Below, in pieces: positions 5,607 through 61,648 of a DNA stretch of 64,000 nucleotides. How positions within the stretch are numbered: the first letter of the stretch is position 1; each line of letters opens with the position of its first letter. The notes beneath the pieces are model-generated. The model did not search any database. It had not been told where the DNA came from and saw only the letters and a program-made list of their open reading frames with translations. The DNA comes from Herbiconiux sp. VKM Ac-1786. Lineage in GTDB: Bacteria > Actinomycetota > Actinomycetes > Actinomycetales > Microbacteriaceae. The position numbers were made by a program, and so were the translations under genes. The stretch covers positions 868,001-932,000 of the forward strand of contig NZ_JADKSG010000001.1 in NCBI RefSeq assembly GCF_015350805.1. Reading direction: 5' to 3'.

Positions 5607-6257
5607 ATGACCTTGACCATCGACACCGCCACGACCCACCGCACCCCGCCGCTGAGCGAGCAGCTCCAGCGCCTGATCGACCTCGGCCTGCCCGAACTCG
5701 CCGGCATCAGCGCCGAGGAGCTGCGGAGCCGCGCGTCGACCCTGCGCGGCCGTCCGGACTCGATCCTCGTGGTCGGCCCCGCGATCGCCGCGCCCTCACG
5801 CCTAGTCACCCTGCTGCGTCGCGGCGGCAAGCCCGGGTTCGTCGCCGACGAGCTGGCCGACGTCGACACCTTCACCGAGCATCCGGATCTCGACGCCTGC
5901 CCCGAGGGCTTCTCACTCGCCCACGGCCTCGACCGCGGCGACGACCTGGCCGCCCGCACCCCCGACGAGGCGCTCGCCGAGATCCTCGCGCGCGGCCGCC
6001 GCCCGCTGACGGTCGCCGAGAGCATCAGCTGGCTCCTCCAGCAGCCCGAGCACCTGACCCCGAACCGCGCCTTCACGACCCTCGCCACCCGCCGCACCGC
6101 CCCCGACGGCACCCTCGACCCCCGGATCCCGACCCTCACGACCGCCACCCCCACCGCCCGCGACCCCCGCTCCCGCCGCGGCGCCCCCCACCTCACCGCC
6201 GCCCTCGCCACCACCACCGCCCACGCCACCCTCGCCCACGCCTCGGCCGCCGCCTGA
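5607..6257 (+). CDS. DUF5701 family protein
   Basis: The 216-residue protein starts at the ATG at 5607, which has GGAG 6 nt upstream; the frame is open much further upstream, but that part overlaps the acidic gene. The N-terminal half (LSEQLQRLIDLGLPELAG, then ILVVGPAIAAPSRLVTLL) resembles DUF5701, an actinobacterial family of unknown function with a mixed alpha/beta domain. The C-terminal 50 residues are Thr/Ala/Arg/Pro-rich and probably unstructured. The family name is my recognition from pattern and was not checked by a search. Confidence 0.65.
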   Translation: MTLTIDTATTHRTPPLSEQLQRLIDLGLPELAGISAEELRSRASTLRGRPDSILVVGPAIAAPSRLVTLLRRGGKPGFVADELADVDTFTEHPDLDACPEGFSLAHGLDRGDDLAARTPDEALAEILARGRRPLTVAESISWLLQQPEHLTPNRAFTTLATRRTAPDGTLDPRIPTLTTATPTARDPRSRRGAPHLTAALATTTAHATLAHASAAA

Positions 6258-6297
6258 CGCTTCCCGCAACCGCATTCTCGGCGACGGCCGAACGACC

Positions 6298-37890: not shown

Positions 37891-39126
37891 CTAGGCGCCG
37901 GCGCGGATCGCGATGCTCGGCGACTTGAAGCCGGTCGCGAGCACGGTCGGCCCGCCTCCGGCGGCGGCCACCTTCTGCACGTCGAGCGTGCCGCGGCTGC
38001 CGATGAAGACGTCTCCGGCGGCCGAGACGGTGACCGCCGACGGAAAGACGAGGTCGGAGGCGACGGTCGTCTGAACCCGGTCGGGCGTGACCCGGATGAC
38101 GAAGCCGTACTGGGCGTCGGCGATGTAGACGTCCCCGGTGGGCGAGACGGCGATGGACGTCGGTGCGTCCAGCCCGCTGCCGATCGTCGTCTGCGCCCCG
38201 CCGTCCGCCGGGAGCCAGAGCACGCGGAACCGGCCGATCTCGGCGAGGTAGACGTCGCCCGCCGGCGAGACGGCGATCGCAGCCACATCGTCGAGCCCCG
38301 ATGCGATCACGGTCTGCGTTCCGCCGTCGGCCGGGATCCGCACCGCCTCCCCGGTTCCGCTGTCGGCGACGTAGACGTCTCCGGACGCCGTGACCGCGAC
38401 CCCGACGGGGCTCACGAAGCCGGCGCCGACGGTCGTCGGCCCCGAGCCGTCGGCGCCGAACCGCAGCACCCGGCTGTTGCGGGTGTCGGCCACGTAGAAG
38501 TCGCCCGCCGCCGTGACGGTGAAGCCGACGGGCCCGCCGGTGCCGGTGACGACGACCTGCTCGGCCCCACCCCCGCCCGGGATGCGCACGATGGTGTCCG
38601 TCGCCTGATCGGCGACGAAGACGTCGGGGATGGGGCCGTAGCCGAGCAGCGTCGAGACCTGGCCGCCCGCGGCGGTGGACACGCTCGTCACGATCTCGGC
38701 CTTCACCCCGCCCCGCACCTCGGCGGTGACCGTGTAGACGGCGCCCGCCACGAGCTGGTCGCTGGTGAGCACGAAGCCCGTGCCGAAGACCGCCGACGCC
38801 CAGACGCTCTCCCCCGTGCTGAGGACGGTCGCCGAGTCGCCGGCGTCGACCGGCTGCACCGCGACCCTGACCTGGGCGCGCGGGGCGAGGTCGGACGGCG
38901 TCGTGATCGTCAGCACCGCGGGGGTGCCGAAGGTGATGGCGGACGGCGTCCAGACCGCCGACAGCCGGGTCACCGGTGTGCTGGCGGCTGCGGCCGGCAC
39001 GCCGACGGCCAGCGCGATGACCGGCGCGCTCCACGCGGCCCCCTGCAGCAGTTGTCGCCGGGAGACGCTCGAGCCGGCTGACAGGCCGGCCGGATGCTCG
39101 GACGGGGTGATCGCGCGCTCGCTCAT
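37891..39126 (-). CDS. secreted NHL-type beta-propeller protein
   Basis: The 411-residue protein has a Tat leader, SRRQLLQGAAW (22-32), and a cleavage site after PAAAA. An Ig-like domain of about 110 residues follows. Then about six repeats of 42 residues with the pattern SPxGDVYVADxxxxRVxRxPADGG form an NHL-like beta-propeller. AGAGGA lies before the ATG at 39126; the longer frame to 39306 would bury the leader. Such proteins bind ligands or act as lactonase-like enzymes; no catalytic residues are apparent. Confidence 0.8.
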   Translation of the reverse strand: MSERAITPSEHPAGLSAGSSVSRRQLLQGAAWSAPVIALAVGVPAAAASTPVTRLSAVWTPSAITFGTPAVLTITTPSDLAPRAQVRVAVQPVDAGDSATVLSTGESVWASAVFGTGFVLTSDQLVAGAVYTVTAEVRGGVKAEIVTSVSTAAGGQVSTLLGYGPIPDVFVADQATDTIVRIPGGGGAEQVVVTGTGGPVGFTVTAAGDFYVADTRNSRVLRFGADGSGPTTVGAGFVSPVGVAVTASGDVYVADSGTGEAVRIPADGGTQTVIASGLDDVAAIAVSPAGDVYLAEIGRFRVLWLPADGGAQTTIGSGLDAPTSIAVSPTGDVYIADAQYGFVIRVTPDRVQTTVASDLVFPSAVTVSAAGDVFIGSRGTLDVQKVAAAGGGPTVLATGFKSPSIAIRAGA

Positions 39127-39251
39127 GTGGTCCTCTCGAGACCGGCCCAGTCTGGACGAACCCGCCGCCAGGGGGAACAGCCGCTTCCGGACATGTCCGC
39201 TACCGGCCACGCCGCCCGCCCGCGCACCCGCGCACCCGCCCACGGCGGATG

Positions 39252-39322
39252 TCGGTACGGGAGGAGAATCGGGCACATGAGCCGCATGCGAGCCCGAAGG
39301 CCGCATTCTCCTCCCGTACCGA
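39252..39322. terminator. long inverted repeat after the Asp23 operon
   Basis: Arms of 18 bp (39252-39269 and 39305-39322) are exact complements, with a 35-nt loop that has an inner CGGGC/GCCCG pair. It begins 22 bp after the last gene of the Asp23 operon (minus strand) and probably terminates it. A U-tract is lacking, so rho-independent strength is unsure. Confidence 0.6.
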
Positions 39323-39343: not shown

Positions 39344-39625
39344 TCAGTCGCGCATCCGGCGGGCGAGGTGGGCGGCCACGGCTGAGACCACGATCGCGGC
39401 GACGATCTTGACGAGGGTCGGATGCTCGCGGTAGAGCTTCTCGGCCCGGTCCCACAGGGTGGCCGCCGTGTCGCTCGCGCGGTCGGCGGCGTCGCGGGCG
39501 TCGTCCGAGACCCGGTCGGCCGCGTCGCGGGCCTTCTCGGCCGCGGCGTCGGCGGTCTTGCGGGCGTTCTTCGCGAGGGTCTCCGCGGTGTCCTTCGCCA
39601 GTTCGGCGGCGTCGTTCGATGCCAT
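39344..39625 (-). CDS. tail-anchored Ala-rich 11-mer repeat protein
   Basis: The 93-residue protein is one amphipathic helix made of 11-residue units (residues 12-55, e.g. DAADRVSDDAR, DAADRASDTAA) followed by a single C-terminal membrane segment (about 69-88). The repeats resemble those of group 3 LEA proteins or apolipoproteins, which lie on membranes. It is the last gene of the Asp23 operon, 4 bp after the Asp23-repeat fusion gene. No enzymatic function is expected. The family resembles YqjD/DUF883-like membrane proteins. Confidence 0.75.
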   Translation of the reverse strand: MASNDAAELAKDTAETLAKNARKTADAAAEKARDAADRVSDDARDAADRASDTAATLWDRAEKLYREHPTLVKIVAAIVVSAVAAHLARRMRD

Positions 39626-39629
39626 GCTG

Positions 39630-40583
39630 CTACTCCTTCGTCGGGGTGGTGTCGGTGGTGGCCGCGGGCTCCGTGGTGGGCGCGGGCTCCGTGGTGGGCT
39701 CGGCCGGGTCGGGGGTGACGGCCTGCTTCACGGCGTCGGCGGCGTCGCGGGCTGCGTCGGCTGCGGCGTCCGCCGCGTCGCTCGCCGCAGCGGCGGCACG
39801 GCTGGCGGCGTCCGCGGCGTCCTCGGCGGCCTGGGCCGCGTCCGGCCCCGGAGCGGCATCGCCGGACCGGGCGCCGGCGTCGTCGGCACGGTCGGAAGCC
39901 GTCTCCCGGACGTGGTCCGCGGCGTCCGACGCGGAGTCGCGCACCGCGTCAGCCGCGTCCGACGCGGCGTTCCGGACGGTGTCGGCGGCGGTCGCCGCGC
40001 TGGAGCGGACGGTGGCCGCCGCGTCGGCCGCGCCGGAGCGGACGGTGGCCGCCGCGTCGGCCGCGCCGGAGCGGACGGTGGCCGCCGCGTCGGCCGCGCC
40101 CGAGCGCGCCGTGGCGACCGCGTCGGCGGTCGTCGCGGCCGCGGTCTCGACCGCGGGCTCGGTGTCGAAGGGGCCGTGCACGTCGGTGATCACGACGTCG
40201 ATCGACGCCGGGTGCTCGTCGAGCTGGGCGACGGCGTGGGTGATCTGGGTGCGGGCCGTGTCGGCGACGTCGGTGACGTTGGCCGGGTACTCGACCACGA
40301 GCGAGACCGTGACGGCGAGTCCGGCGTCGCGTCGCGAGATCGAGACGCCCGGGTAGGCGCCCGATCCGGTGACCGAGCGGCGCACCGAGTCGACGGCCCG
40401 CCCGAAGGGGGTGCCGAGGCGGTGCACGCCGCTGACGCCGAGGGCCGTGTCGGCCACGGTGCGGGCCAGCACCTCCGCCGGGTCCGGGTTCGGGTCGGCG
40501 GGCGGTGGCACCTGACCGAGGTCGATCGGCTCGATGTGGCGACCGGCGGCGGCGGGGGTGGGAGTGTGGGTGGTGTTGCTCAT
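39630..40583 (-). CDS. Asp23/Gls24-like domain fused to 11-mer Ala-rich repeats
   Basis: This 317-residue protein has an Asp23/Gls24-like domain (about 35-137: VADTALGVSGVHRLG, then ISRRDAGLAVTVSLVVEYP and a final strand IDVVITDVHGPF). After it, residues 161-237 are seven 11-mers of the type SGAADAAATVR, and more irregular repeats run to about 288. The end is Pro/Thr-rich. Asp23 proteins bind the membrane through AmaP-type anchors in envelope stress response. The repeat region would be a long amphipathic helix. It is the sixth gene of a seven-gene unit. Confidence 0.75.
   Translation of the reverse strand: MSNTTHTPTPAAAGRHIEPIDLGQVPPPADPNPDPAEVLARTVADTALGVSGVHRLGTPFGRAVDSVRRSVTGSGAYPGVSISRRDAGLAVTVSLVVEYPANVTDVADTARTQITHAVAQLDEHPASIDVVITDVHGPFDTEPAVETAAATTADAVATARSGAADAAATVRSGAADAAATVRSGAADAAATVRSSAATAADTVRNAASDAADAVRDSASDAADHVRETASDRADDAGARSGDAAPGPDAAQAAEDAADAASRAAAAASDAADAAADAARDAADAVKQAVTPDPAEPTTEPAPTTEPAATTDTTPTKE
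40003..40101 (-). repeat. three perfect 33-bp tandem repeats
   Basis: Three identical 33-bp units (40003-40035, 40036-40068, 40069-40101) lie in the Asp23-repeat fusion gene. Each encodes one 11-residue unit, SGAADAAATVR, in phase. The sequence identity at DNA level indicates recent slippage or duplication, so the number may vary between strains. Confidence 0.9.
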
Positions 40584-40614
40584 GACTCTGTCCTGTCTGC
40601 GTTCTTCAGGCGGC

Positions 40615-41223
40615 TCACGCGACCCGGGCGGTCGAGGCCACCCGGCTGCGCAGCCCGCTCACGATCTGGATGACGACCGGCGTCTGCCGGCCGAGCAGCG
40701 CGTCCCACTCGCCGACGGCGCGGTCGATCGACTCGCGCACCGCCACCGGGGAGGCGCCGCGACGGGCGTGCGCGGTGATGCGGAGCACGTTCTGCCGCCG
40801 CACCCGGAAGGCCGTGACGTCGAGGGCGACGATCGAGGGATCCCGCGACAGCGCGTCCGACAGCAGGTCCGACGCGACCTTCGCGTCGACGATCAGGTCG
40901 CCGCCGGCCGGCGTGGCCCCCTGAGACGCGGAGCCGGCGCCCACCCGCAGCAGCGTCCCGGTGCGCCCCCGCCCCTGCCGCAGCGCGAACCACACCAGCA
41001 CCGCGATCAGCAGCAGGCACCCCGCCGCAGCGGCCCACGCCACCCACGGCGCCCCCGAGAGGGACGACGAGACGGCGGAACCCGCACCGTCGACGGCACC
41101 CGAGACGGCGTCGCGCGCATCCGGGATCAGCACCCCGACAGCGGTCGCCCCGCCCACGACGAGCAGCACGAGGCCGACGACGAGGAGCAGCAGGCGGTTG
41201 AGGAATCGGTTGGTGGTGGTCAT
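40615..41223 (-). CDS. AmaP-like membrane protein of the Asp23 operon
   Basis: The 202-residue protein has two membrane segments (about 8-32 and 58-80) and a C-terminal cytoplasmic domain (about 105-195) with the strand pattern ALDVTAFRVRRQNVLRITAHA, like the conserved domain of alkaline-shock membrane anchors. In Staphylococcus, AmaP tethers Asp23 to the membrane; the same role is likely here. Its start overlaps the upstream gene by 4 bases (ATGA). Confidence 0.68.
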   Translation of the reverse strand: MTTTNRFLNRLLLLVVGLVLLVVGGATAVGVLIPDARDAVSGAVDGAGSAVSSSLSGAPWVAWAAAAGCLLLIAVLVWFALRQGRGRTGTLLRVGAGSASQGATPAGGDLIVDAKVASDLLSDALSRDPSIVALDVTAFRVRRQNVLRITAHARRGASPVAVRESIDRAVGEWDALLGRQTPVVIQIVSGLRSRVASTARVA

Positions 41224-41798
41224 GCTCCGACGGTTCCGTTCTCGGTCAGCCGGACGCTCGCGCGGAGCCCCGGGGTGAAGTCGTAGCCCGCGAGCTCGGC
41301 CTCGACGGCGGCACGGATGGCGCCGACATCGGCCGCGCGGCCCGAGCTGCGGGTCACGACGACGGATGCGCGACGGCGCCCCACCGCGACGTGCACCTGC
41401 TCGGGGTCGACGTCGCCCGCGAAGGCGGCGGCGCGGGCGAGGCTCGCCGCGATGACGCGGTCGTCGACCACGGCGGCGGTGCGGTCGCGGCGCGAACCGC
41501 GACGACCGCGGCGGGCCGGCTTCAGCGCGGCGACCACGAGCACGACGCCGATCACGGCGACGACCGCCCCGATCGCGACGAGCAGCGCGGTCGGCGCGGC
41601 GACGGCTCCCGACAGCGATCCGGCCGCGTCGGCCGGTGCGACGAGCAGCGCGGGCCGGCCGAGGGCCGCGAGCACCAGTTCGGTGCCCGCCCAGGCGACG
41701 AGCAGCGCGAGCACGACGGCGACCGCGATGGCCGCCCCCGCGCGGGAGGAATGGGTCTCGCGCCGCACCAGGCGGCGGTAGAGGGCGGGTGTGCTCAT
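41220..41798 (-). CDS. DUF6286-like membrane protein of the Asp23 operon
   Basis: This 192-residue protein has two membrane segments (about 20-46 and 65-92), a basic patch (KPARRGRRGSRRDR) and a C-terminal alpha/beta domain with VHVAVGRRRASVVVTRSSGR, similar in type to the DUF6286 proteins found in Streptomyces Asp23 clusters. The family name is tentative. It probably works with the AmaP-like protein in membrane tethering. Both ends overlap neighbours by 4 bases. Confidence 0.66.
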   Translation of the reverse strand: MSTPALYRRLVRRETHSSRAGAAIAVAVVLALLVAWAGTELVLAALGRPALLVAPADAAGSLSGAVAAPTALLVAIGAVVAVIGVVLVVAALKPARRGRRGSRRDRTAAVVDDRVIAASLARAAAFAGDVDPEQVHVAVGRRRASVVVTRSSGRAADVGAIRAAVEAELAGYDFTPGLRASVRLTENGTVGA

Positions 41799-42157
41799 GC
41801 GACCCTCCTCCTCTCTCTCAGATCGGCGCCGGTGATCCGCAGATCGACCCGTCCGATGCTCGAACCGGTCAGTGCGAGCAGGCGGTCCCGGATGCTCGAC
41901 TGCGCCGAGGCGACGCGCTCGAGCAGCGTGCCCGAACGCTCGCCGCCCCGCGGCGCCACGCCGAGCGGCGACAGGCGGATCGGGGTGCGGGCCGTGACGA
42001 CCAGCACCCCCCGCTCGTCGGCGAGCTCGACGGACACCGCGGAGGCGTCGACGTCGAGGGCGTCGGCGGTGACGGCCGACACCACGCGCCGGACGGCGCG
42101 CGGCGCGATCACGGTGCGCCCGTGCAGACCCGAGCCGGCCGCCACCGCTGCGGTCAC
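41795..42157 (-). CDS. small Asp23-like protein
   Basis: The 120-residue protein begins at a GTG at 42157 that overlaps the stop of the upstream gene (GTGA). It has a two-helix/three-strand pattern (IAPRAVRRVVSAVTADAL, then GVLVVTARTPIRLSPLG, and a final VDLRITGADL), similar to Asp23/Gls24 domains without the stress-induced N-terminus. No membrane segment is present. Its role is inferred from the operon. Confidence 0.62.
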   Translation of the reverse strand: MTAAVAAGSGLHGRTVIAPRAVRRVVSAVTADALDVDASAVSVELADERGVLVVTARTPIRLSPLGVAPRGGERSGTLLERVASAQSSIRDRLLALTGSSIGRVDLRITGADLRERRRVA

Positions 42158-42342
42158 GACGACCGCCGCCCTCGGAGCGACTCGCCGAGCGAGCGGAGGT
42201 CGAGCTTGCCCTCGGCCACCCGGCCGGCGGCCCAACCGATCGCCATCGCGAGGGCCACGAACACGAAGGCCCAGAAGCCGAGCGTGATCGCGGTCAGCGC
42301 GAGCACGGCGCCGATCAGGACGCCGGTGGTGGCGGAGCTCAC
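42154..42342 (-). CDS. DUF2273-like small membrane protein
   Basis: This 62-residue protein has two adjacent membrane segments (about 5-24 and 25-42) ending in RVAEGKLDLRSLGESLRGRR. That matches DUF2273, a short membrane protein regularly encoded next to asp23. It probably helps anchor Asp23 proteins. It overlaps both neighbours by 4 bases. Confidence 0.75.
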   Translation of the reverse strand: MSSATTGVLIGAVLALTAITLGFWAFVFVALAMAIGWAAGRVAEGKLDLRSLGESLRGRRSS

Positions 42343-42758
42343 TGGACGCGGCTCTCGGCGGCGTCGTCGCCCTCGTCGTCCGAGGGGATGTGCACGTCGG
42401 ACACGGTCACGTTGACCTCGGCGACCTCCATGCCGACGACGGTGGTGATGGCGCGGCTGACGCTCGCGCGGATCTCGTCGGCGAGCTTCTGCAGGTCGAC
42501 GGGGTACTCGGCGACGACGGTGATGTCGGCGGCGACCTGGCGCTCGCCGACCTCGACCTTGACGCCCTGGCCGCGGTCCTGCGCGTTGATGGCGTTGCGG
42601 ATGGCGCCGATGGCGCGGGCGGCGCCGCCGCCCAGGTCGTGCACGCCGTAGACCTCGCGTGCGGCGATGCCGGCGACCTTCTCGACCACGCCGTCGGCGA
42701 CGGTGTTGGTGCCCTTCGAGGAGGTGGTGGAGTGCTTGGCGGTGGTGGTGTCGGTCAT
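42339..42758 (-). CDS. Asp23/Gls24 family envelope stress protein
   Basis: This 139-residue protein is a typical Asp23/Gls24 member: VADGVVEKVAGIAAREVYGV at the N-terminus, VKVEVGERQVAADITVVAEY in the centre and VAEVNVTVSDVHIP at the end, followed by an acidic tail. Family members are cytoplasmic and membrane-associated, and are induced by alkaline or cell-wall stress. It heads the operon and has a strong AAGGAG site 7 nt before the ATG. No sigma factor gene is adjacent, unlike some Streptomyces clusters. Confidence 0.9.
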   Translation of the reverse strand: MTDTTTAKHSTTSSKGTNTVADGVVEKVAGIAAREVYGVHDLGGGAARAIGAIRNAINAQDRGQGVKVEVGERQVAADITVVAEYPVDLQKLADEIRASVSRAITTVVGMEVAEVNVTVSDVHIPSDDEGDDAAESRVQ

Positions 42759-42904
42759 GATCTCTCCTTGGGTAGAGGCCCCCGGGTGGAGGCTCCGTGG
42801 AAGCGGGTCTTCACCAGTGAGACGTGATCAGGATCGACAAGGGCATAGGCACTCAGGGAGCGTTCAGGGAGGAAGCGCGACGGGGCTCAGCGCCCCTGGG
42901 CGAG

Positions 42905-44149
42905 CTAGTAGCGGATGGCGTCGATGACCTTGACGCGCACCGCGACGAGCGCCGGCAGGATGCCCGCCAGCGCCCCCACGGCCGACGCCGCCACGAGCCC
43001 GAGCACCGCCGCGTCGACCGGGAACGGCGGGAAGTCGGTGACGAGCCCCTGACCGACCAGGTCGTGCACCATCGGGCTCTGCACGATCAGGATCGCGGCC
43101 GCCACCCCGGCGGCCCCGGCGGCGACCGTCGCCACCACGCTCTCCATCATCACCGCGAAGAACACCCGGCCCGCGGTCGCCCCGAAGCTGCGCCGGATGC
43201 CGATCTCCCGCACCCGCTGCTTGACCGTCACGAGGGCGATGTTGACCAGCCCGAGCGCTCCGAGCAGCAGCACGAGCAGGGCGATGCCGCCGACGATCAT
43301 CTGCGTCACGAGGAAGGGGTCGTCGCCGTACTGCGCGGCGTCCTGGCGCTGCACGTCGACGGTCGCCCCGTCTCCGACCGCCGCCGCGAGGTCGCGCTTC
43401 ACGGCCGCGGCGAGCGCCTCCCAGTCGCCGACGGGCACCCAGAGCTCGTACTGGGTCGACGACCCGGCGAAGGGGTCGACCGCGGCGCCGGCACCCGCAT
43501 CCGCCTGCTGGAAGGCCGCGAGCTGGTCGGCGAGCATGAACATCGCCGGCTCGGTCTCCCAGTCGGCCGAGGGGTAGACCCCCACGATCACCGCGGTCGT
43601 GCCGTCGTCACCGCCGAGCGAGAGCAGCGGATGCGCGTCGAGCGCCGGCTGCCCGAGGGAATCCCAGAACACCGAGTTCACGATCACGCGGGGCGCGAGC
43701 TGTTCGGCGTCGGCCGCCGTGAACCAGGCGCCCTCCGAGATGCGCACGCGGTGCATCTCGCCGTAGGGCTGGTCGACGGCCTGGGTGCCGACGGAGAGCA
43801 CGCCGTTCGGCGAGTCGACGGGCACCGAGGCGTTCACCACCCGGCTGGCGTAGTCGATGCCGTAGCGCGAGACGGTCTCGACCCAGGCGGTCTGCAGCGT
43901 CTCGGCGTCGACCTGCCCGCCGTCCTGGCTGTAGGCCGAGACGTAGAGGGTGGCGGGGCGCCCGCTCTGGCGCTCGCTCAGCTCGGCGGTCGACTGCTGG
44001 AGGATGCCGCCGAGCGCCACGACGGTGGTGAGCGAGCAGACGGCCACGGCGACGCCGATCAGCGAGAGCAGCACGCGGGTGCGGTGGATGCGCAGCTCCT
44101 GCCACGCCTCGAGCACCGCCCCGACGAGCCCGGTGAGCAGGCGGCTCAC
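42905..44149 (-). CDS. ABC transporter permease (MacB/FtsX type)
   Basis: This 414-residue protein has one N-terminal membrane segment (about 26-50), a long extracytoplasmic domain (about 55-265) and three C-terminal membrane segments, the layout of MacB_PCD plus FtsX. It lacks the fused ATPase of true MacB; that is encoded by the next gene upstream. It may export a peptide, lipid or antibiotic. It overlaps the ATPase gene by 4 bases. Confidence 0.9.
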   Translation of the reverse strand: MSRLLTGLVGAVLEAWQELRIHRTRVLLSLIGVAVAVCSLTTVVALGGILQQSTAELSERQSGRPATLYVSAYSQDGGQVDAETLQTAWVETVSRYGIDYASRVVNASVPVDSPNGVLSVGTQAVDQPYGEMHRVRISEGAWFTAADAEQLAPRVIVNSVFWDSLGQPALDAHPLLSLGGDDGTTAVIVGVYPSADWETEPAMFMLADQLAAFQQADAGAGAAVDPFAGSSTQYELWVPVGDWEALAAAVKRDLAAAVGDGATVDVQRQDAAQYGDDPFLVTQMIVGGIALLVLLLGALGLVNIALVTVKQRVREIGIRRSFGATAGRVFFAVMMESVVATVAAGAAGVAAAILIVQSPMVHDLVGQGLVTDFPPFPVDAAVLGLVAASAVGALAGILPALVAVRVKVIDAIRY

Positions 44150-55789: not shown

Positions 55790-56361
55790 GGAAGGGACAA
55801 CGCGGGCGGGCGGCGGAGCCTTCCCGACCGGCCGCCCGGCGCGGTATCCGATCGCTGCGGGATACCGGAGCCGAATCGGCAGAAGTCGTTCAGCACAGAG
55901 CTGCGGACACTAGTGGTCATGTCGACAATTCCCCTGAGTCGCCAGCGGTAGTGAGTTCGGGCGCTGCCGGGCAGCTGACCCTAGCCACCGGTCTGACGTT
56001 CGAGTCGGGACTGGGCGCTCAAGACCTACCAAACGCGGAGTGATTGTTCTGACGGGCGAGGTCACTACATTTCGCCGACCTGTCATCCACTTGACATAAG
56101 GAACATTATCGGTCTCGAATGATCGTGCCTGAACGGCATGTCTCAGGGTCCGCGTATCGTGACTCATGTCAAGGCAGACGGAACGAAACCTAAAGCCGCG
56201 TCATGGCCGGCTGGCGGTATCCATTCGTCTCAGTGAGAGGTGGGCAATTCGTCTCGTCAGAGCGCCTCACTGGGCTCACCATCGACTTGACAGGCAACAA
56301 ATTGTGTCGTCTACTGGATACCGTTAACGGTAATCGGACAACGAGTGGAAGGGACGACAAC
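55790..56361. other. gene-free regulatory region, AT-richer than its surroundings
   Basis: No convincing gene is seen in these 572 bases; short open frames lack ribosome binding sites. It holds four copies of CGGTATCC (two per strand: 55842, 55860, 56215, 56316), a possible weak promoter TTGACA-N18-TCGAAT (56091-56120), and the GntR promoter near its right end. Its base composition appears lower in GC than the flanking genes, which suggests an acquisition boundary. Confidence 0.6.
56287..56332 (+). promoter_or_regulatory. promoter and operator of the rhamnoside-cluster GntR gene
   Basis: TTGACA (56287-56292, perfect) and TCTACT (56310-56315, 4/6) are 17 bp apart. Directly after the -10 the 14-bp perfect palindrome TACCGTTAACGGTA (56319-56332) covers the expected transcription start, an arrangement that suits autorepression. 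A GGATACCG copy overlaps its left half. Confidence 0.65.
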
Positions 56362-57054
56362 ATGATCACAACGCTTCTTCCCGTCCGACAGCAATCGCTT
56401 GGGTCTCAGGTGAGTTCGGTGCTACGCGATCTCATCATTCGTAGAGAACTCGCTCCAGGTACCCACCTAGTCGAAGACGCTCTAGCAGCGGAATACGATG
56501 TGAGTCGCGGCCCAATCCGTGACGCCCTCCGCCAGCTCGAGAGCGAGGGATTGGTCGAATCCCGCCGCCGTGGAATCTTCGTCGTCGGCATTGAGCTTCG
56601 AGATATTGAAGACCTCTATTCACTGCGCGAGGCGATTGAAGAACTTGCGTTGCGTCTTGCCATGGAACGCGCGACACCGGACCAGTGGGTCGAAGGTCGT
56701 CGTCTGGTAGACGCCATGCGCGCTGCCGCAGACCGGCAGGACGAGCAGGAGTTTGCGCGGGCCGACGTGGACTTTCACGCGCTGCTCTACCGACTCAGCG
56801 GACACCGTCGCCTCGTCGATGTCTGGGGACAGTACGAACCCATTCTGACGAGTCTGCTTCAGGTGACGGTCGCCGAAGACGTCGACCTCCACCCGTCTGC
56901 CGAGGATCACCAGCGTCTCCTTGACATTGTCGCAACCGGCGATCAGGACGCAGCTGTGCGCGCCATCCGTGAGCACCTGGAGGGTGCAAAGCACCGAATG
57001 ATCCATGCTTACAGCGCATCAGTCGGCGAACTTCAAGCAGAAACCGCCAGCTGA
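56362..57054 (+). CDS. GntR-family regulator (FCD type)
   Basis: The 230-residue protein has a GntR winged helix (about 12-76; EDALAAEYDVSRGPIRDALR is the DNA-reading part) and an FCD sensor domain (about 82-215). GGAAGGGA lies 8 nt before the ATG. Its codon use is more AT-rich than that of the surrounding genes (att, gtt, gaa). It heads the rhamnoside cluster and probably senses a sugar acid or related intermediate of it. The palindrome at 56319 is its likely site. Confidence 0.9.
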   Translation: MITTLLPVRQQSLGSQVSSVLRDLIIRRELAPGTHLVEDALAAEYDVSRGPIRDALRQLESEGLVESRRRGIFVVGIELRDIEDLYSLREAIEELALRLAMERATPDQWVEGRRLVDAMRAAADRQDEQEFARADVDFHALLYRLSGHRRLVDVWGQYEPILTSLLQVTVAEDVDLHPSAEDHQRLLDIVATGDQDAAVRAIREHLEGAKHRMIHAYSASVGELQAETAS

Positions 57055-57143
57055 GCCGACATTAACCGAGCCCCGAAATAAGAGCTTCGGCACTCATCTC
57101 AGCGCGCCCACCGCGCAAATTGATCTCAATGAGGAGTCTCCCC

Positions 57144-58118
57144 ATGACCACTGTCGTCGACAGCACCGTGAACCCCCTGGCGGGTTACGAAGACGAGGAA
57201 CGCGGCCTCGAGCCGGCCGGCAGAGGCAACGGCAAGCGCCCCCGCGGCGGCCAGCGCTTCTCGCGCCAGCTGCTCTGGTTCGCCCTACCTGCCCTCGTGT
57301 TCTACGTCTTCGTGGTGGTGGTGCCCACCCTCCGCGGTGGTCTGCTGGCCTTCACGAACTGGGACGGCCTCTCCCAGGCCTACGAGTTCATCGGCATCGA
57401 CAACTTCGTGCGGGTGTTCACCGAGCCTGCCGCCCTGCAGGCCCTCGGCACCACGCTCATAATCGCCGCCGCGATCACCGTGTTCCAGAACCTGATCGGG
57501 CTGCTGCTGGCACTGGGGGTGAACAGCCGCATCAAGTCGCGCAACGTGCTGCGGGTGGTGTTCTTCGCCCCGGTGGTCATCACTCCGGTCGTGGTCGCCT
57601 ACCTATGGAAGTTCATGCTCACCCCCGAGGGCGCCGTGAACAGCGCGCTCGGCGGTCTCGGGCTCGGCTCCCTGCAGCAGGACTGGCTCGGCAACCCCAC
57701 GCTCGCTCTGGTGTCGGTGATCTTCGTGGCCGTCTGGCAGAACGCCGGGTTCTCGATGGTGATCTTCCTGGCCGGGCTGCAGTCCATCCCGCAGGAGCTG
57801 ATGGAGGCCGCCGAGGTCGACGGCGCCGGTGCCTGGCGCCGCTTCCGGAGCGTGGTGTGGCCGCTGCTCGCCCCGGCCACCACCATCAACCTCATGCTCA
57901 CGGTGATCGCGGGCCTCAAGATGTTCTCCGAGGTCTTCGTGCTCACCGGAGGCGGGCCGGGAACCGCCACTCAGACCCTCTCCACCCTCATCTACAAGAG
58001 CGCGTTCCAGTTCAACGAGTTCGCCTACAGCATCGCGCTGGCGCTCGTGCTGGCCGTGATCGTGGCCGTGATCTCCGGTGCGCAGTACCGGCTCGCCAAC
58101 CGGAAGGACCAGTTCTGA
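57144..58118 (+). CDS. carbohydrate ABC transporter permease (MalF/UgpA type)
   Basis: This 324-residue permease has a hydrophilic, Gly/Arg-rich N-terminal tail (about 1-42), six membrane segments and the EAA loop ELMEAAEVDGAGAWRRFRSV near 215. GAGGAG is 7 nt before the ATG at 57144. It overlaps the next permease gene by one base (TGATG). With no ATPase gene in the cluster, a general MsiK-like ATPase is needed. Confidence 0.93.
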   Translation: MTTVVDSTVNPLAGYEDEERGLEPAGRGNGKRPRGGQRFSRQLLWFALPALVFYVFVVVVPTLRGGLLAFTNWDGLSQAYEFIGIDNFVRVFTEPAALQALGTTLIIAAAITVFQNLIGLLLALGVNSRIKSRNVLRVVFFAPVVITPVVVAYLWKFMLTPEGAVNSALGGLGLGSLQQDWLGNPTLALVSVIFVAVWQNAGFSMVIFLAGLQSIPQELMEAAEVDGAGAWRRFRSVVWPLLAPATTINLMLTVIAGLKMFSEVFVLTGGGPGTATQTLSTLIYKSAFQFNEFAYSIALALVLAVIVAVISGAQYRLANRKDQF

Positions 58119-58939
58119 TGGGCCGCTACACGGTCAAGACCCTCGGCCTCGAGGTGGTGATGTACCTCGCGGCGATCGTGTTCATCTTCCCCGTCTACAT
58201 CCTGCTGAACCTCTCCTTCCGGCCCAGCAACGACCAGGCCTCGCCCGTGGTGCCGCTCACCAGCCCCACCATCGACAACTACGTCAACGCCTGGAACGAG
58301 GCCGGCCTCGCGCAGGCCCTGCTAAACAGCGCCATCATCACGATAGTCAGCGTGACGCTCACGGTTGTGATCTCCTCGCTCGCCGCCTACCCGCTTGCCC
58401 GCGTCACCTCGAGGCTGTCGACGGGCGTCTTCTGGCTCATCCTCGCCGGGCTCCTCATCCCGTTCCAGGTCGCGCTCATCCCGCTCTACCAGACCATCCG
58501 CGACCTCGGACTGCTCGGCAGCATCTGGTCGCTGGTGATCTTCTACGCCGGGCTGCAGGTTCCGTTCTCGGTGTTCCTCTACACCGGGTTCTTGCGCACC
58601 CTGCCGCGCGACTATGAGGAGGCCGCCTCCCTCGACGGCGCCGGGCAGCTGCGCACCTTCGTGAGCGTGGTCTTCCCGTTGCTGCGACCGATCACCGGCA
58701 CCGTCGTCATCCTTAACGCCATCGCGGTGTGGAACGACTTCCTGGTTCCCCTGCTCTATCTCAGCGGCACCACCCAGCAGACCATCACGGTGGCCCTCTA
58801 CAGCTTCGTGGGCCAGTACGTGTCGAACTGGCCGATCGTGTTCGCCGGGCTCGTAATCAGCATCATCCCGGTGCTGCTGGTCTACTTCCTGCTGCAGAAG
58901 CACATCATCCAGGGCTTCGCGGGCGGACTGAAAGGCTAG
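58118..58939 (+). CDS. carbohydrate ABC transporter permease (MalG type)
   Basis: This 273-residue permease has six membrane segments and the EAA loop RDYEEAASLDGAGQLRTFVS. The end IIQGFAGGLKG is typical of MalG-like proteins. The ATG at 58118 overlaps the previous stop. It forms the importer with the preceding permease and the lipoprotein at 61707. The cargo is probably a rhamnose-containing glycoside, inferred from the next gene. Confidence 0.93.
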   Translation: MGRYTVKTLGLEVVMYLAAIVFIFPVYILLNLSFRPSNDQASPVVPLTSPTIDNYVNAWNEAGLAQALLNSAIITIVSVTLTVVISSLAAYPLARVTSRLSTGVFWLILAGLLIPFQVALIPLYQTIRDLGLLGSIWSLVIFYAGLQVPFSVFLYTGFLRTLPRDYEEAASLDGAGQLRTFVSVVFPLLRPITGTVVILNAIAVWNDFLVPLLYLSGTTQQTITVALYSFVGQYVSNWPIVFAGLVISIIPVLLVYFLLQKHIIQGFAGGLKG

Positions 58940-58948
58940 GACGAACGG

Positions 58949-61648
58949 ATGCTCGAACCCTACGATCTCGAGACCGACCGCCAGACCGCCCCCAGTGGCA
59001 TCGTGTCACCGCCCTCCTTCAGCTGGCGGCTGCGCGGAACGGCTCGCGGCGATTCTCAAACCGCTTATCGCATCACGGTGAATGCCGAGCTCGGGCTTGG
59101 TAGCGCGTCCCTCGTCTGGGACTCCGGATGGCACGACTCCGCCTCCACCGCGGGCATCCCCTACACCGGTGCCCCGCTGATGTCGTCGACCGCCTACAGC
59201 TGGCGCCTCGAACTCCGCGGCGCCCGAGGCGAGACCCCGACTACCGCGGCCAGGTTCGAGACTGCGGTTGTGCATCCCGACGAATGGCGCGCCCACTGGA
59301 TCGCCCGCAACCCGATCTACACCCAGATCGCCCCCGTGCCGCAGGACACCGACATCAGCTACACCGTTAACAAGCTCAAGCCGGTGCGCCGCTTCGCCAA
59401 GCACTTCACCCTCGACGCCGTGCCCCGCCGGGCCGTGGTGCACTCCTCGGCCAAGGGGATCTACCGGCTGTACGTGAACGGGCACCGGGTGGGCCGCGAC
59501 GAGCTGGTGCCGGGCTGGACCGAGTACCGCGAGCGGATCGCCTATCAGAGCCACGATGTCACCGCGCTGCTGGTGGAGGGCGAGAACTCCATCGCGGCTC
59601 TGCTCGGCGACGGCTGGTGGTGCGGCTTCATTGGCACCGACCGCCGGCACCACGCCCAGCACTACGGCGACGAGCCCGCGTTCCTGGCCCAGCTCGAACT
59701 CGGTGCCGCCGATGGCGGCCGCACAGTGGTGGCCACCGACGAGACCTGGCGTGAGAGCGCCAGCGAGATCCTCTACGCCGACCTGCTCATGGGCCAGTAC
59801 GAAGACGCCCGGCAGCGCGTCGACGACTGGCACCTCACGAGCCACCCGATCGGGGAGTGGTCGAGCGCTGTGGTGGTCGACTCCGGCCACTCCCTTCTGG
59901 TGCCCGAGAGCGACCCGGCGGTGCGGGCGATCGAGGCACTCCCGGCGCGGAGCGTGACCACGCGCATCCCGGGCCACCACGTGGTCGACTTCGGCCAGAA
60001 CCTGGTGGGACACGTGGCACTCACCCTGCGCGGCGTGCCAGCCGGCACCCGTGTGCAGCTCGACCACGCCGAGGTGCTGAAGGACGACGGCTCGCTCTAC
60101 ACCGAGAACCTCCGCACCGTCGAGGCCACCGACGTCTACGTCACCCGCGGCGACGAGGTCGAGGTGTTCGAGCCGCGCTTCACCCTGCACGGCTTCCGCT
60201 TCGCCGAGATCTCCGGGCTCGAGGCGGCTCCGGATGCGGCCGACATCGAGGCGGTCGTCATCCACAACGACTTCGCCCCGGCCGGCGAACTGGAGACCGA
60301 CGACGGCGCGCTCAACCAGCTGGTGTCGAACATCCGCTGGGGCCTGCGGGACAACTTCGTGGCCGTGCCCACCGACTGCCCGCAGCGCGACGAGCGGCTG
60401 GGCTGGACGGCAGATGCGCAAGTGTTCACCCCGACGGCGCTGTACGAGGCGCAGCTGCTGCCGTTCCTTCGGCGCTGGCTGCGCGATCTGCGCAGCGCCC
60501 AGTCGGCCGAGGGCGCCTTTCCCGACACGGCACCGCACATGGTGCACAAGCGGGAGGGCGCGCCGGCCTGGGGCGACGGCGGGGTCACCATCCCGTGGGC
60601 GCTCTACACCGCCACCGGATCGGAGGAGGTACTGCGCGAGTCCATCGACTCGATGGTGGCGTGGGTGCGCTACCTGCACCTGCACAACCCCGGGCTGCTC
60701 TGGGTGAACCGGCGCGGCAACGACTACGGCGACTGGCTCTCAGTGGGCGAGCAGACCTCGAAGGACGTGCTGGCCACCGCCTACTTCGCCCGCAGCACCG
60801 AGCTCACCGCCCGGGCGCTGCGCGTGCTCGGCCGCAACAGCGAGGCGGCGGAATTCGAGGAGCTGCTCGCGGGCATTCGCTCGGCCTTCCTGGAGGCCTA
60901 CGTCACCGACGACGGCCTGGTGGAAGGTGACACCCAGACCGGCTACCTGCTCGCCCTGGGCTTCGACCTGGTGCCGGCCGAGTGGCGCGACGCCGTGGCC
61001 GCACACCTGGTGCGGGCGGTCGAGCGGCGCGGTCCGGCCCTCACCACCGGCTTCATCGGGGTGGCCCTGCTGCTGCCCGTGCTCACCTCGATCGGCCGCT
61101 CCGACCTGGCGTTCTCGCTGCTGCACCGCGACGAGTACCCGTCCTGGCTGTACTCGGTCAAGAACGGTGCCACCACCATCTGGGAGCGCTGGGACGGCTG
61201 GACAAGCGAGCACGGCTTCCAGTCGGCGCGCATGAACAGCTTCAACCACTACTCCTTCGGCTCGGTGGGCGAGTGGCTCTACCGCTCGCTCGCCGGCATC
61301 GGCCAGACCGATCGCAGCGTCGCCTTCGGCGAGCTGGAGATCGCACCGCAGTTCGACCCGTCGCTCACCCGGGTGCGGGCCGCCCACGAGTCGCCGCGTG
61401 GCCGCATCGAGGCTTCCTGGCACCGATCGGAGGGCCGGGTCGAGTTCGCGCTCACCGTGCCGCCCGGATCGACCGCCCACGTGGCGCTGCCCGCCCGGGC
61501 CGCGTCGCAGATCGAGGAAGGAGGCGCAGCCGCAGTGGATGCCGAGGGCATAGCCCTCGAAACGGAGACCGACCAGGTCGTCCGATTCACCGTGGAGTCC
61601 GGAAGCTACCACTTCCGGCTTCCCGACCCGGCGCTCGTCGCCGTCTGA
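58949..61648 (+). CDS. alpha-L-rhamnosidase, GH78
   Basis: The 899-residue enzyme belongs to glycoside hydrolase family 78 and releases terminal L-rhamnose from glycosides. N-terminal beta domains (about 1-330, with KGIYRLYVNGHRVGRDELVP) precede the (alpha/alpha)6 barrel, which starts near 350-360. The signature DCPQRDERLGWTADAQ begins at D476 and holds the catalytic acid region; GDWLSVGEQTSKDV and TTIWERWDGWTSEHGFQSAR follow. No signal peptide is present, so it should act in the cytoplasm on imported substrate. It starts 9 bp after the permease gene. Confidence 0.93.
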   Translation: MLEPYDLETDRQTAPSGIVSPPSFSWRLRGTARGDSQTAYRITVNAELGLGSASLVWDSGWHDSASTAGIPYTGAPLMSSTAYSWRLELRGARGETPTTAARFETAVVHPDEWRAHWIARNPIYTQIAPVPQDTDISYTVNKLKPVRRFAKHFTLDAVPRRAVVHSSAKGIYRLYVNGHRVGRDELVPGWTEYRERIAYQSHDVTALLVEGENSIAALLGDGWWCGFIGTDRRHHAQHYGDEPAFLAQLELGAADGGRTVVATDETWRESASEILYADLLMGQYEDARQRVDDWHLTSHPIGEWSSAVVVDSGHSLLVPESDPAVRAIEALPARSVTTRIPGHHVVDFGQNLVGHVALTLRGVPAGTRVQLDHAEVLKDDGSLYTENLRTVEATDVYVTRGDEVEVFEPRFTLHGFRFAEISGLEAAPDAADIEAVVIHNDFAPAGELETDDGALNQLVSNIRWGLRDNFVAVPTDCPQRDERLGWTADAQVFTPTALYEAQLLPFLRRWLRDLRSAQSAEGAFPDTAPHMVHKREGAPAWGDGGVTIPWALYTATGSEEVLRESIDSMVAWVRYLHLHNPGLLWVNRRGNDYGDWLSVGEQTSKDVLATAYFARSTELTARALRVLGRNSEAAEFEELLAGIRSAFLEAYVTDDGLVEGDTQTGYLLALGFDLVPAEWRDAVAAHLVRAVERRGPALTTGFIGVALLLPVLTSIGRSDLAFSLLHRDEYPSWLYSVKNGATTIWERWDGWTSEHGFQSARMNSFNHYSFGSVGEWLYRSLAGIGQTDRSVAFGELEIAPQFDPSLTRVRAAHESPRGRIEASWHRSEGRVEFALTVPPGSTAHVALPARAASQIEEGGAAAVDAEGIALETETDQVVRFTVESGSYHFRLPDPALVAV

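Follow-up and report, generated by a model that had tools for sequence, protein, structure and literature searches.

Asp23/Gls24 proteins are widespread. In Staphylococcus aureus, Asp23 assembles into filaments, which AmaP tethers to the membrane; what the protein does at the molecular level has been called unclear (PMC6954212). Group-3 LEA (LEA-3, G3LEA) proteins are described as chaperone-like, their 11-mer consensus combines hydrophobic, acidic/amide and basic positions, and LEA-3 model peptides become helical on drying (PMC10295645). Protection of the inner membrane and, partially, of dried liposomes is reported for pea LEAM (PMC6981728), and BilRI of Aggregatibacter, an outer membrane LEA protein with eleven 11-mers, shows that membrane-bound bacterial LEA proteins exist (PMC8096337). 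In perilipin-4, the Ala/Val/Thr face of the helix is low in hydrophobicity, and its binding to bilayers is very weak (PMC6164224). Here we describe a seven-gene Asp23 operon of Herbiconiux sp. VKM Ac-1786 (Microbacteriaceae), located in a 64,000-nucleotide stretch of contig NZ_JADKSG010000001.1 (the window), in which a second Asp23 protein, Asp23B or F, bears a long tail of 11-residue repeats. A first-pass annotation made from the sequence had proposed a stress-induced membrane-coating system in which Asp23 is built onto a desiccation-protein-like helix, an arrangement that it had not seen described; among the papers listed by our literature searches, from which subscription papers were mostly absent, none was seen to describe an Asp23 that bears an 11-mer tail. 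We regard it as quite possible, though short of probable, that F is an Asp23 paralogue that brings a LEA-3-like helix to a membrane Asp23 layer and acts in water stress.

An Asp23 protein fused to 11-residue repeats

The protein and its repeats occupy the following positions of the window:

39630..40583, minus strand: F (Asp23B), 317 amino acids (aa), Asp23 domain at about residues 35-138 followed by an acidic Ala-rich 11-mer tail (Pfam Asp23, 2.5e-8)
39873..40136, minus strand: eight consecutive 11-mers, F residues 150-237 (repeat register)

F scores 34.8 bits against Pfam Asp23 (cut-off 28), and its fusion to seven or more 11-mers, as read by the first-pass annotation, is borne out by eight consecutive units, three of which are identical (SGAADAAATVR, residues 161-193). 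Further along, at about 247-289, lies a helix of lesser regularity. In residues 136-317, identity at lag 11 stands at z = 11.6 relative to residue shuffles (z is 7.2 at lag 22 and 4.3 at lag 7), and none of 5000 shuffles equalled this signal over all lags tried. No period is seen in the Asp23 domain by itself. When the 246 window open reading frames (ORFs) of at least 90 aa are ranked by lag-11 signal, F comes first and the small tail-anchored protein encoded after it (TA) fifth, ranks 2-3 being antisense to F. At the DNA level there is a tandem array at 39952-40127 with a period of 33 bp, 5.3 copies and 85% matches. The hydrophobicity period, 3.65-3.70 residues per turn in both the F repeat region and TA, is about 11/3.

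In the AlphaFold2 model of F, the Asp23 domain has pLDDT blocks of 71-96 and the tail forms helices at 145-191, 196-239 and 247-289, with pLDDT of about 58-77. By Foldseek and VIA-align the modelled Asp23 domain lies near the C-terminal domains of metal transporters (MamM, Z 10.7, 78 residues aligned, rmsd 2.0), which we take to mean no more than that they share a common fold; the 50 structural matches listed for this domain name no structure of an Asp23, which excludes nothing.

Tail geometry is conserved while the repeat units differ

Relatives were gathered as 125 loci, 53 from sampled Microbacteriaceae genomes and 72 from a scan with a single conserved peptide pattern, two sets that overlap. 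Starting from 73 proteins, we dropped ten without a usable tail of at least 60 aa and then 19 near-copies, which left 44 tails; L101 and L150, with masked bases inside the tail, were kept out of the tail statistics. The repeat unit varies by genus (SGAADAAATVR in the window, DALEKAKDAGS in L120, DQAGEKARDLR in L097) and tail length runs from 64 to 351 residues, mostly 150-350. The mean helical period of the 44 tails is 3.64 residues, with a power of 15.8 (shuffle 95% maximum 1.55), compared with 11.8 at 3.667 and 1.7 at the heptad value of 3.5. The strongest lag is 11 in 26 tails, 7 in seven, 18 in six and 22 in two, with lags 29, 5 and 6 in one tail each. A left-handed heptad coiled coil is thus rejected, its period being weak and lag 7 leading in 7/44 tails; neither the absence of an 11-mer signal nor a 7-mer coiled coil, the two outcomes that the annotation had named as fatal to its proposal, was found.

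A class-A helix carries K/R at the polar-apolar edge and D/E at the centre of the polar face. In the pooled wheel of the tails, the apolar face at 0 degrees is Ala-rich, D/E are enriched 2.4-2.7x at ±160 degrees and K/R 1.2-2.2x at ±80-120 degrees. When only the uncharged residues set the phase, the K/R share of charged residues is 0.37 at 60-140 degrees, 0.15 beyond 140 and 0.48 at 0-60. In this analysis 3/44 tails lacked a usable 33-residue segment; no label shuffle out of 2000 gave a flank-centre difference as high, and 34/41 tails agree with it. The tails therefore carry the class-A layout of apolipoproteins and group-3 LEA proteins, K/R at the edge and D/E at the centre. What is conserved is geometry and not letters, period and wheel persisting while the units differ.

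This constancy bears on another explanation, in which a GC-rich, low-complexity extension prone to slippage and only weakly selected makes up the tail, which is kept helical and soluble and has no specific function. Such an origin would account for the 33-bp DNA repeats, for the wide range of tail lengths among the 44 and for the fact that the tail is missing in scattered lineages. It fits poorly with a 3.64 period and a charge layout kept in 44 tails despite different units, a constancy that neither drift nor slippage would maintain by itself, and with the canonical Asp23 encoded in the same loci (Asp23A, gene A below), which never has such a tail (at least 60 aa in 0/114 matches at E<1e-20 in the 125 relative loci). 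We consider this explanation improbable.

Comparison with known families was made with the tail-bearing members, all 46 of which match Pfam Asp23 at E<=0.01. At the same threshold, 14/46 match Pfam Apolipoprotein (best 1.7e-12), to which F of the window scores 16.1 bits (cut-off 90). YtxH is matched by seven (best 1.7e-6), ISG65-75 by three, MT0933_antitox by two and five more families once each, all of which we read as compositional. The published G3LEA 11-mer consensus (PMC10295645) fits the tails better than 150/150 permuted consensuses, permutation also breaking the amphipathicity; with apolar positions fixed it ranks 9/210, with a mean match of 0.46. A type-I-antifreeze-like reading, with Thr every 11 residues, was dropped because Thr varies from 2 to 13% among the tails. 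As a separate observation, the tails of L081, L085, L120, L123 and L128 have a short Val/Asp-rich strand-like end after the helices, for example VTVIVDGHGEQPTRIEVDGPATVEVQGD in L120.

The operon and its other proteins

F is the sixth gene of a minus-strand operon that starts at 42758 and ends at 39344, its order being A, B, C, D, E, F, TA, so that the seven tightly packed genes first described are all present. Its remaining members are:

42339..42758, minus strand: A, canonical Asp23 without tail, 139 aa (Pfam Asp23, 5.4e-25)
42154..42342, minus strand: B, small membrane protein DUF2273, 62 aa (Pfam DUF2273, 5.8e-9)
41795..42157, minus strand: C, small protein, 120 aa (GTG start)
41220..41798, minus strand: D, membrane protein, DUF6286-type, 192 aa (DUF6286 in 13/16 members, best 2.8e-10)
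40615..41223, minus strand: E, AmaP-like membrane anchor, 202 aa (NCBIfam AmaP, NF033218)
39344..39625, minus strand: TA, tail-anchored, 93 aa (lag-11 z 5.1)

Stop and start codons overlap by 4 bases at the A-B, B-C, C-D and D-E junctions, and the gaps before F and TA measure 31 and 4 bases. The Asp23 and DUF2273 identities proposed earlier hold above the Pfam cut-offs for A (88.3 bits against PF03780, cut-off 28), B (36.3 bits, cut-off 25.4) and F. Genome-wide, Asp23 is matched at five places at E<=0.001, four of them above the Pfam cut-off. The GTG start of C was picked from homologue lengths (the listed TTG ORF begins at 42235). C had also been called Asp23-like: its AlphaFold2 model (pTM 0.64) does have the helix-strand-strand-helix-strand order of the Asp23 core, and despite this agreement profile-profile alignment with Asp23B (hhalign) gave a probability of only 1.2%, Pfam Asp23 was matched by 1/17 members of C (at 0.0017), and Foldseek with the C model returned generic matches, none at E<=0.001. 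We thus rejected C as an Asp23 homologue and consider the 'Asp23-like' label weakly supported. D of the window has no Pfam match at E<=0.01 and scores 18.5 bits against AmaP (cut-off 55). NCBIfam AmaP is matched by 17/17 members of E at E<=0.01 (best 1.5e-12), the window copy scoring 18.1 bits and so under the cut-off of 55. Profile-profile comparison of D and E with Asp23B was negative.

In TA, an amphipathic 11-mer helix of about 66 residues is combined with a single hydrophobic segment near 70-88 (hydropathy maximum 2.09, from residue 70) and a basic C-terminus; the period that it was said to share with F is indeed present. Its only close homologue among 398 family genomes is in Herbiconiux gentiana, and only there and in the window was TA seen in the slot after F. 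Weak matches occur in 14 further genomes of the 398, and seven such regions were inspected, two of which have a TA-like gene near Asp23 genes (in L251 directly after Asp23, in L248 downstream of an E-like gene at a distance of about 2.3 kb). A second membrane-anchored 11-mer architecture within Microbacteriaceae was seen in L254 (about 6077-6268, plus strand), where an N-terminal hydrophobic segment is followed by many 11-mers of the TTARDLADRTS type.

A scan for promoters and terminators at the operon did not find a sigma-70 site. Upstream of Asp23A, within window positions 42759-42905, lies a 15-base block, CACTGGTGAAGACCC, which may be a promoter or regulator site and is restricted to the loci of three Herbiconiux genomes with the operon (9/233 loci). 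Just downstream of the operon, positions 37891-39306 (minus strand) encode NHL beta-propeller repeats behind an N-terminal signal-like segment (by eye). Elsewhere in the window, positions 56001-60000 have a GC content of 0.645, compared with 0.696-0.746 in the other 4-kb blocks, and encode a GntR/FCD regulator, a binding-protein-dependent transport permease and an alpha-L-rhamnosidase.

Distribution and gene neighbourhood in Microbacteriaceae

Asp23B is common to many genera of Microbacteriaceae, well beyond the single genome covered by the first-pass annotation. Some Asp23 is matched in 155/393 sampled genomes of the family and Asp23B in 54/393 (at least 51 bits, the next best being 47.6 bits), including 3/16 genomes of the window's own genus. 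All 72 loci of the pattern scan belong to the family, namely to Herbiconiux, Frigoribacterium, Curtobacterium, Rathayibacter, Frondihabitans, Clavibacter, Plantibacter, Agreia, Labedella, Subtercola, Amnibacterium and unclassified Microbacteriaceae; Curtobacterium carries the Asp23B operon. When 396 genomes from the order were searched, nothing scored above 86 bits except F of the window (168.6; its A, 77), in a sample that contained no other Asp23B to calibrate the scores. In that search 128 genomes matched, and none of the 43 loci inspected (the 29 best-scoring ones plus 14 chosen for long open frames, a set that includes some Microbacteriaceae) had an Asp23 tail of at least 50 aa. Judging from these sequence searches, Asp23B has been found so far only in Microbacteriaceae.

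Gene order in the relatives is mostly that of the window. At E<=1e-3, neighbours were matched in the 125 loci as follows: A in 114, B in 95, C in 77, D in 99 and E in 100; 11 further A matches are F itself, several at contig ends. As exceptions, B-E come after F in L197, the Clavibacter-type loci have A and F only, and in G003, a close Herbiconiux relative, A and F stand side by side with B to E, the tail and TA missing.

Downstream of F, 100/125 loci encode a hydrophobic protein that is conserved and about 135 aa long (E<=1e-3, some matches weak; example L133 5993-6400, plus strand), which has several membrane segments (hydropathy, eye) and no clear Pfam family. This neighbour, like the Ala-rich helix face, could be expected if the tail were a protein-protein module, a straight or right-handed hendecad coiled coil with Ala-face packing and neither lipid contact nor a role in drying, that would cross-link Asp23 filaments or hold a partner, either this protein or the MIP channel described below. 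The 3.64 period fits straight or right-handed helical bundles, and the three tail helices predicted by AlphaFold2 are long (43-47 residues). Large hydrophobic residues are too few for a coiled-coil core, however, the tail units vary freely in sequence and length, and no solved relative is detected by sequence, the PDB search with the F tail giving a single match at E 0.92. We judge such a module unlikely, while giving it serious weight.

On the other side of F, a gene for a MIP (aquaporin-family) channel lies directly upstream on the same strand in 21/125 loci. It precedes F in 12 of the 53 loci fetched from the sampled genomes, and the pairing occurs in Frondihabitans, Clavibacter, some Rathayibacter and further genera of the family. 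The two neighbours tested match Pfam MIP at 1.4e-43 or better. Examples of the pairing are:

L104 6474-7277, minus strand: MIP (aquaporin-family) gene directly upstream of F
L120 5075-5893, plus strand: MIP (aquaporin-family) gene directly upstream of F

The MIP neighbour is clustered on the tree, with 8 changes compared with 11.1 in shuffles (3/500 shuffles as low), a signal that is favoured by near-copies in the tree. These channel neighbours in other genera suggest a link between F and water.

A proposed role in water stress

A water-stress role for F is our best guess. Since Asp23 of S. aureus forms filaments tethered by AmaP, F should by analogy carry its tail into such a layer. We infer that the Asp23 domain of F most likely co-assembles with Asp23 in a layer beneath the cytoplasmic membrane, which in the window operon would be held there by the AmaP-like E and by D. 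The tail, as a long 3-11 helix-former, would thereby be concentrated at the inner membrane face, and a helix at the membrane is plausible. Upon water loss the tail would gain helix and shield the membrane and membrane proteins, through shallow contact either with neighbouring helices or, possibly, with lipid. In the window and in H. gentiana, TA would itself insert into the membrane and anchor another helix of this kind there.

Expression data from the literature touch on this proposal, although for this organism the 'stress-induced' of the first-pass annotation stays a supposition. In drying Curtobacterium aetherium, one Asp23/Gls24 gene was up at each of the four times sampled, and a second one once water had fallen to 50% or less; that report does not say which Asp23 genes rose, whether A, F or others, which tempers its support (PMC12029717). 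In Streptomyces venezuelae, an Asp23 gene went down after ethanol shock (PMC9769785).

Several further observations weigh against the proposed role. The AlphaFold2 confidence in the tail helices is moderate and the F model has a pTM of 0.43; of the checks first suggested, the periodicity analysis confirmed the 11-mer. None of the 46 tail-bearing members matches LEA_4 (PF02987) at E<=0.01, and LEA_4 membership is rejected; of the LEA-3/apolipoprotein-type helix originally proposed, the 3-11 period and class-A charge layout stand and the LEA family assignment is not supported. A net negative charge (-11 to -50) is common to the 44 tails without exception, large hydrophobics are few (3-24%) and the hydrophobic moment is low (medians 0.20 and 0.27). 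As a rule of thumb, acidic, low-moment helices bind anionic bilayers poorly. Spontaneous binding of these acidic, Ala-rich and weakly hydrophobic tails to an anionic membrane is thus not favoured, and the idea of 'membrane-coating' is not supported. The window, moreover, has no MIP channel gene.

The distribution of tail and anchors also counts against the proposal. In the 53 fetched loci plus the window, the tail has at least 50 aa in 47/54 Asp23B and is absent (<40 aa) in 7/54, scattered over the tree, with 7 changes of loss or gain of which at least 5 are forced by well-supported branches (in a quick tree with many weak forks); the tail is therefore dispensable. Four of the seven tail-less loci retain D and E (L092, L100, L103, L110). 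Conversely, 10/46 tail-bearing loci are without a D or E match in the fetched stretch (seven Clavibacter-type loci, L127, L129 and L130), so anchoring by D/E is not general. The idea of a joint loss of tail and anchors, which came from the Herbiconiux relative L080, accordingly fails both ways, in 4 and 10 loci.

The same acidity suits another possibility, that the tail, being acidic and hydrophilic, serves as a LEA-like shield, or as a vitrifying agent, that protects cytosolic proteins close to the membrane without touching lipid. Strong net negative charge, a mean hydrophobicity near 0 and the chaperone-like character ascribed to group-3 LEA proteins are in line with it. An ordered amphipathic layout, by contrast, exceeds the needs of a shield, and the domain that bears the tail has a known relative linked to the membrane. 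We find this possibility distinctly improbable.

Extended to the family, the proposal that F brings a LEA-3-like helix to the membrane becomes more tentative: in Microbacteriaceae, a 3-11 helix of this kind on an Asp23 subunit might constitute a membrane-tethered shield for water loss, a lattice with 150-350 helix residues per subunit, joined in some genera by a MIP channel and adjusted in length by repeat slippage. An Asp23 paralogue with a drought-protein-like helix and a MIP neighbour suggests one job of the Asp23 layer, that of keeping protective helices in place at the membrane while water is lost, and the natural differences in tail length between species offer a ready-made comparison series.

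Comparison with known systems

With the S. aureus Asp23/AmaP system the window shares an Asp23 gene and an AmaP-like anchor gene in one operon. It joins Asp23 with DUF2273 (above the cut-off) and with the AmaP-type E (the window copy below it), although E is not general among the relatives, as its 100/125 loci show. The window differs in its second Asp23 with an 11-mer tail, in the extra DUF6286-type and small proteins and in what follows F, which is TA in the window and H. gentiana or the hydrophobic protein in most relatives. TA presumably resembles the DUF883 proteins (YqjD/ElaB), with an amphipathic N-terminal helix, one C-terminal membrane segment and a basic end, yet its profile score of 13.6 bits falls under the Pfam DUF883 cut-off of 25.4. 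Group-3 LEA proteins such as Deinococcus DosH, pea LEAM and BilRI have in common with the tail its 11-residue repeats, hydrophilic nature and richness in Ala; F departs from them in its acidic net charge, its Asp23 fusion, the co-encoded AmaP-like protein and the lack of a LEA_4 match. The 3-11 helices of apolipoproteins, synuclein and perilipin-4 are similar to the tail in layout, with a period near 11/3, K/R at the edge and D/E at the centre, and perilipin-4 is also similar in its weak Ala/Val/Thr face; the tail is the more acidic.

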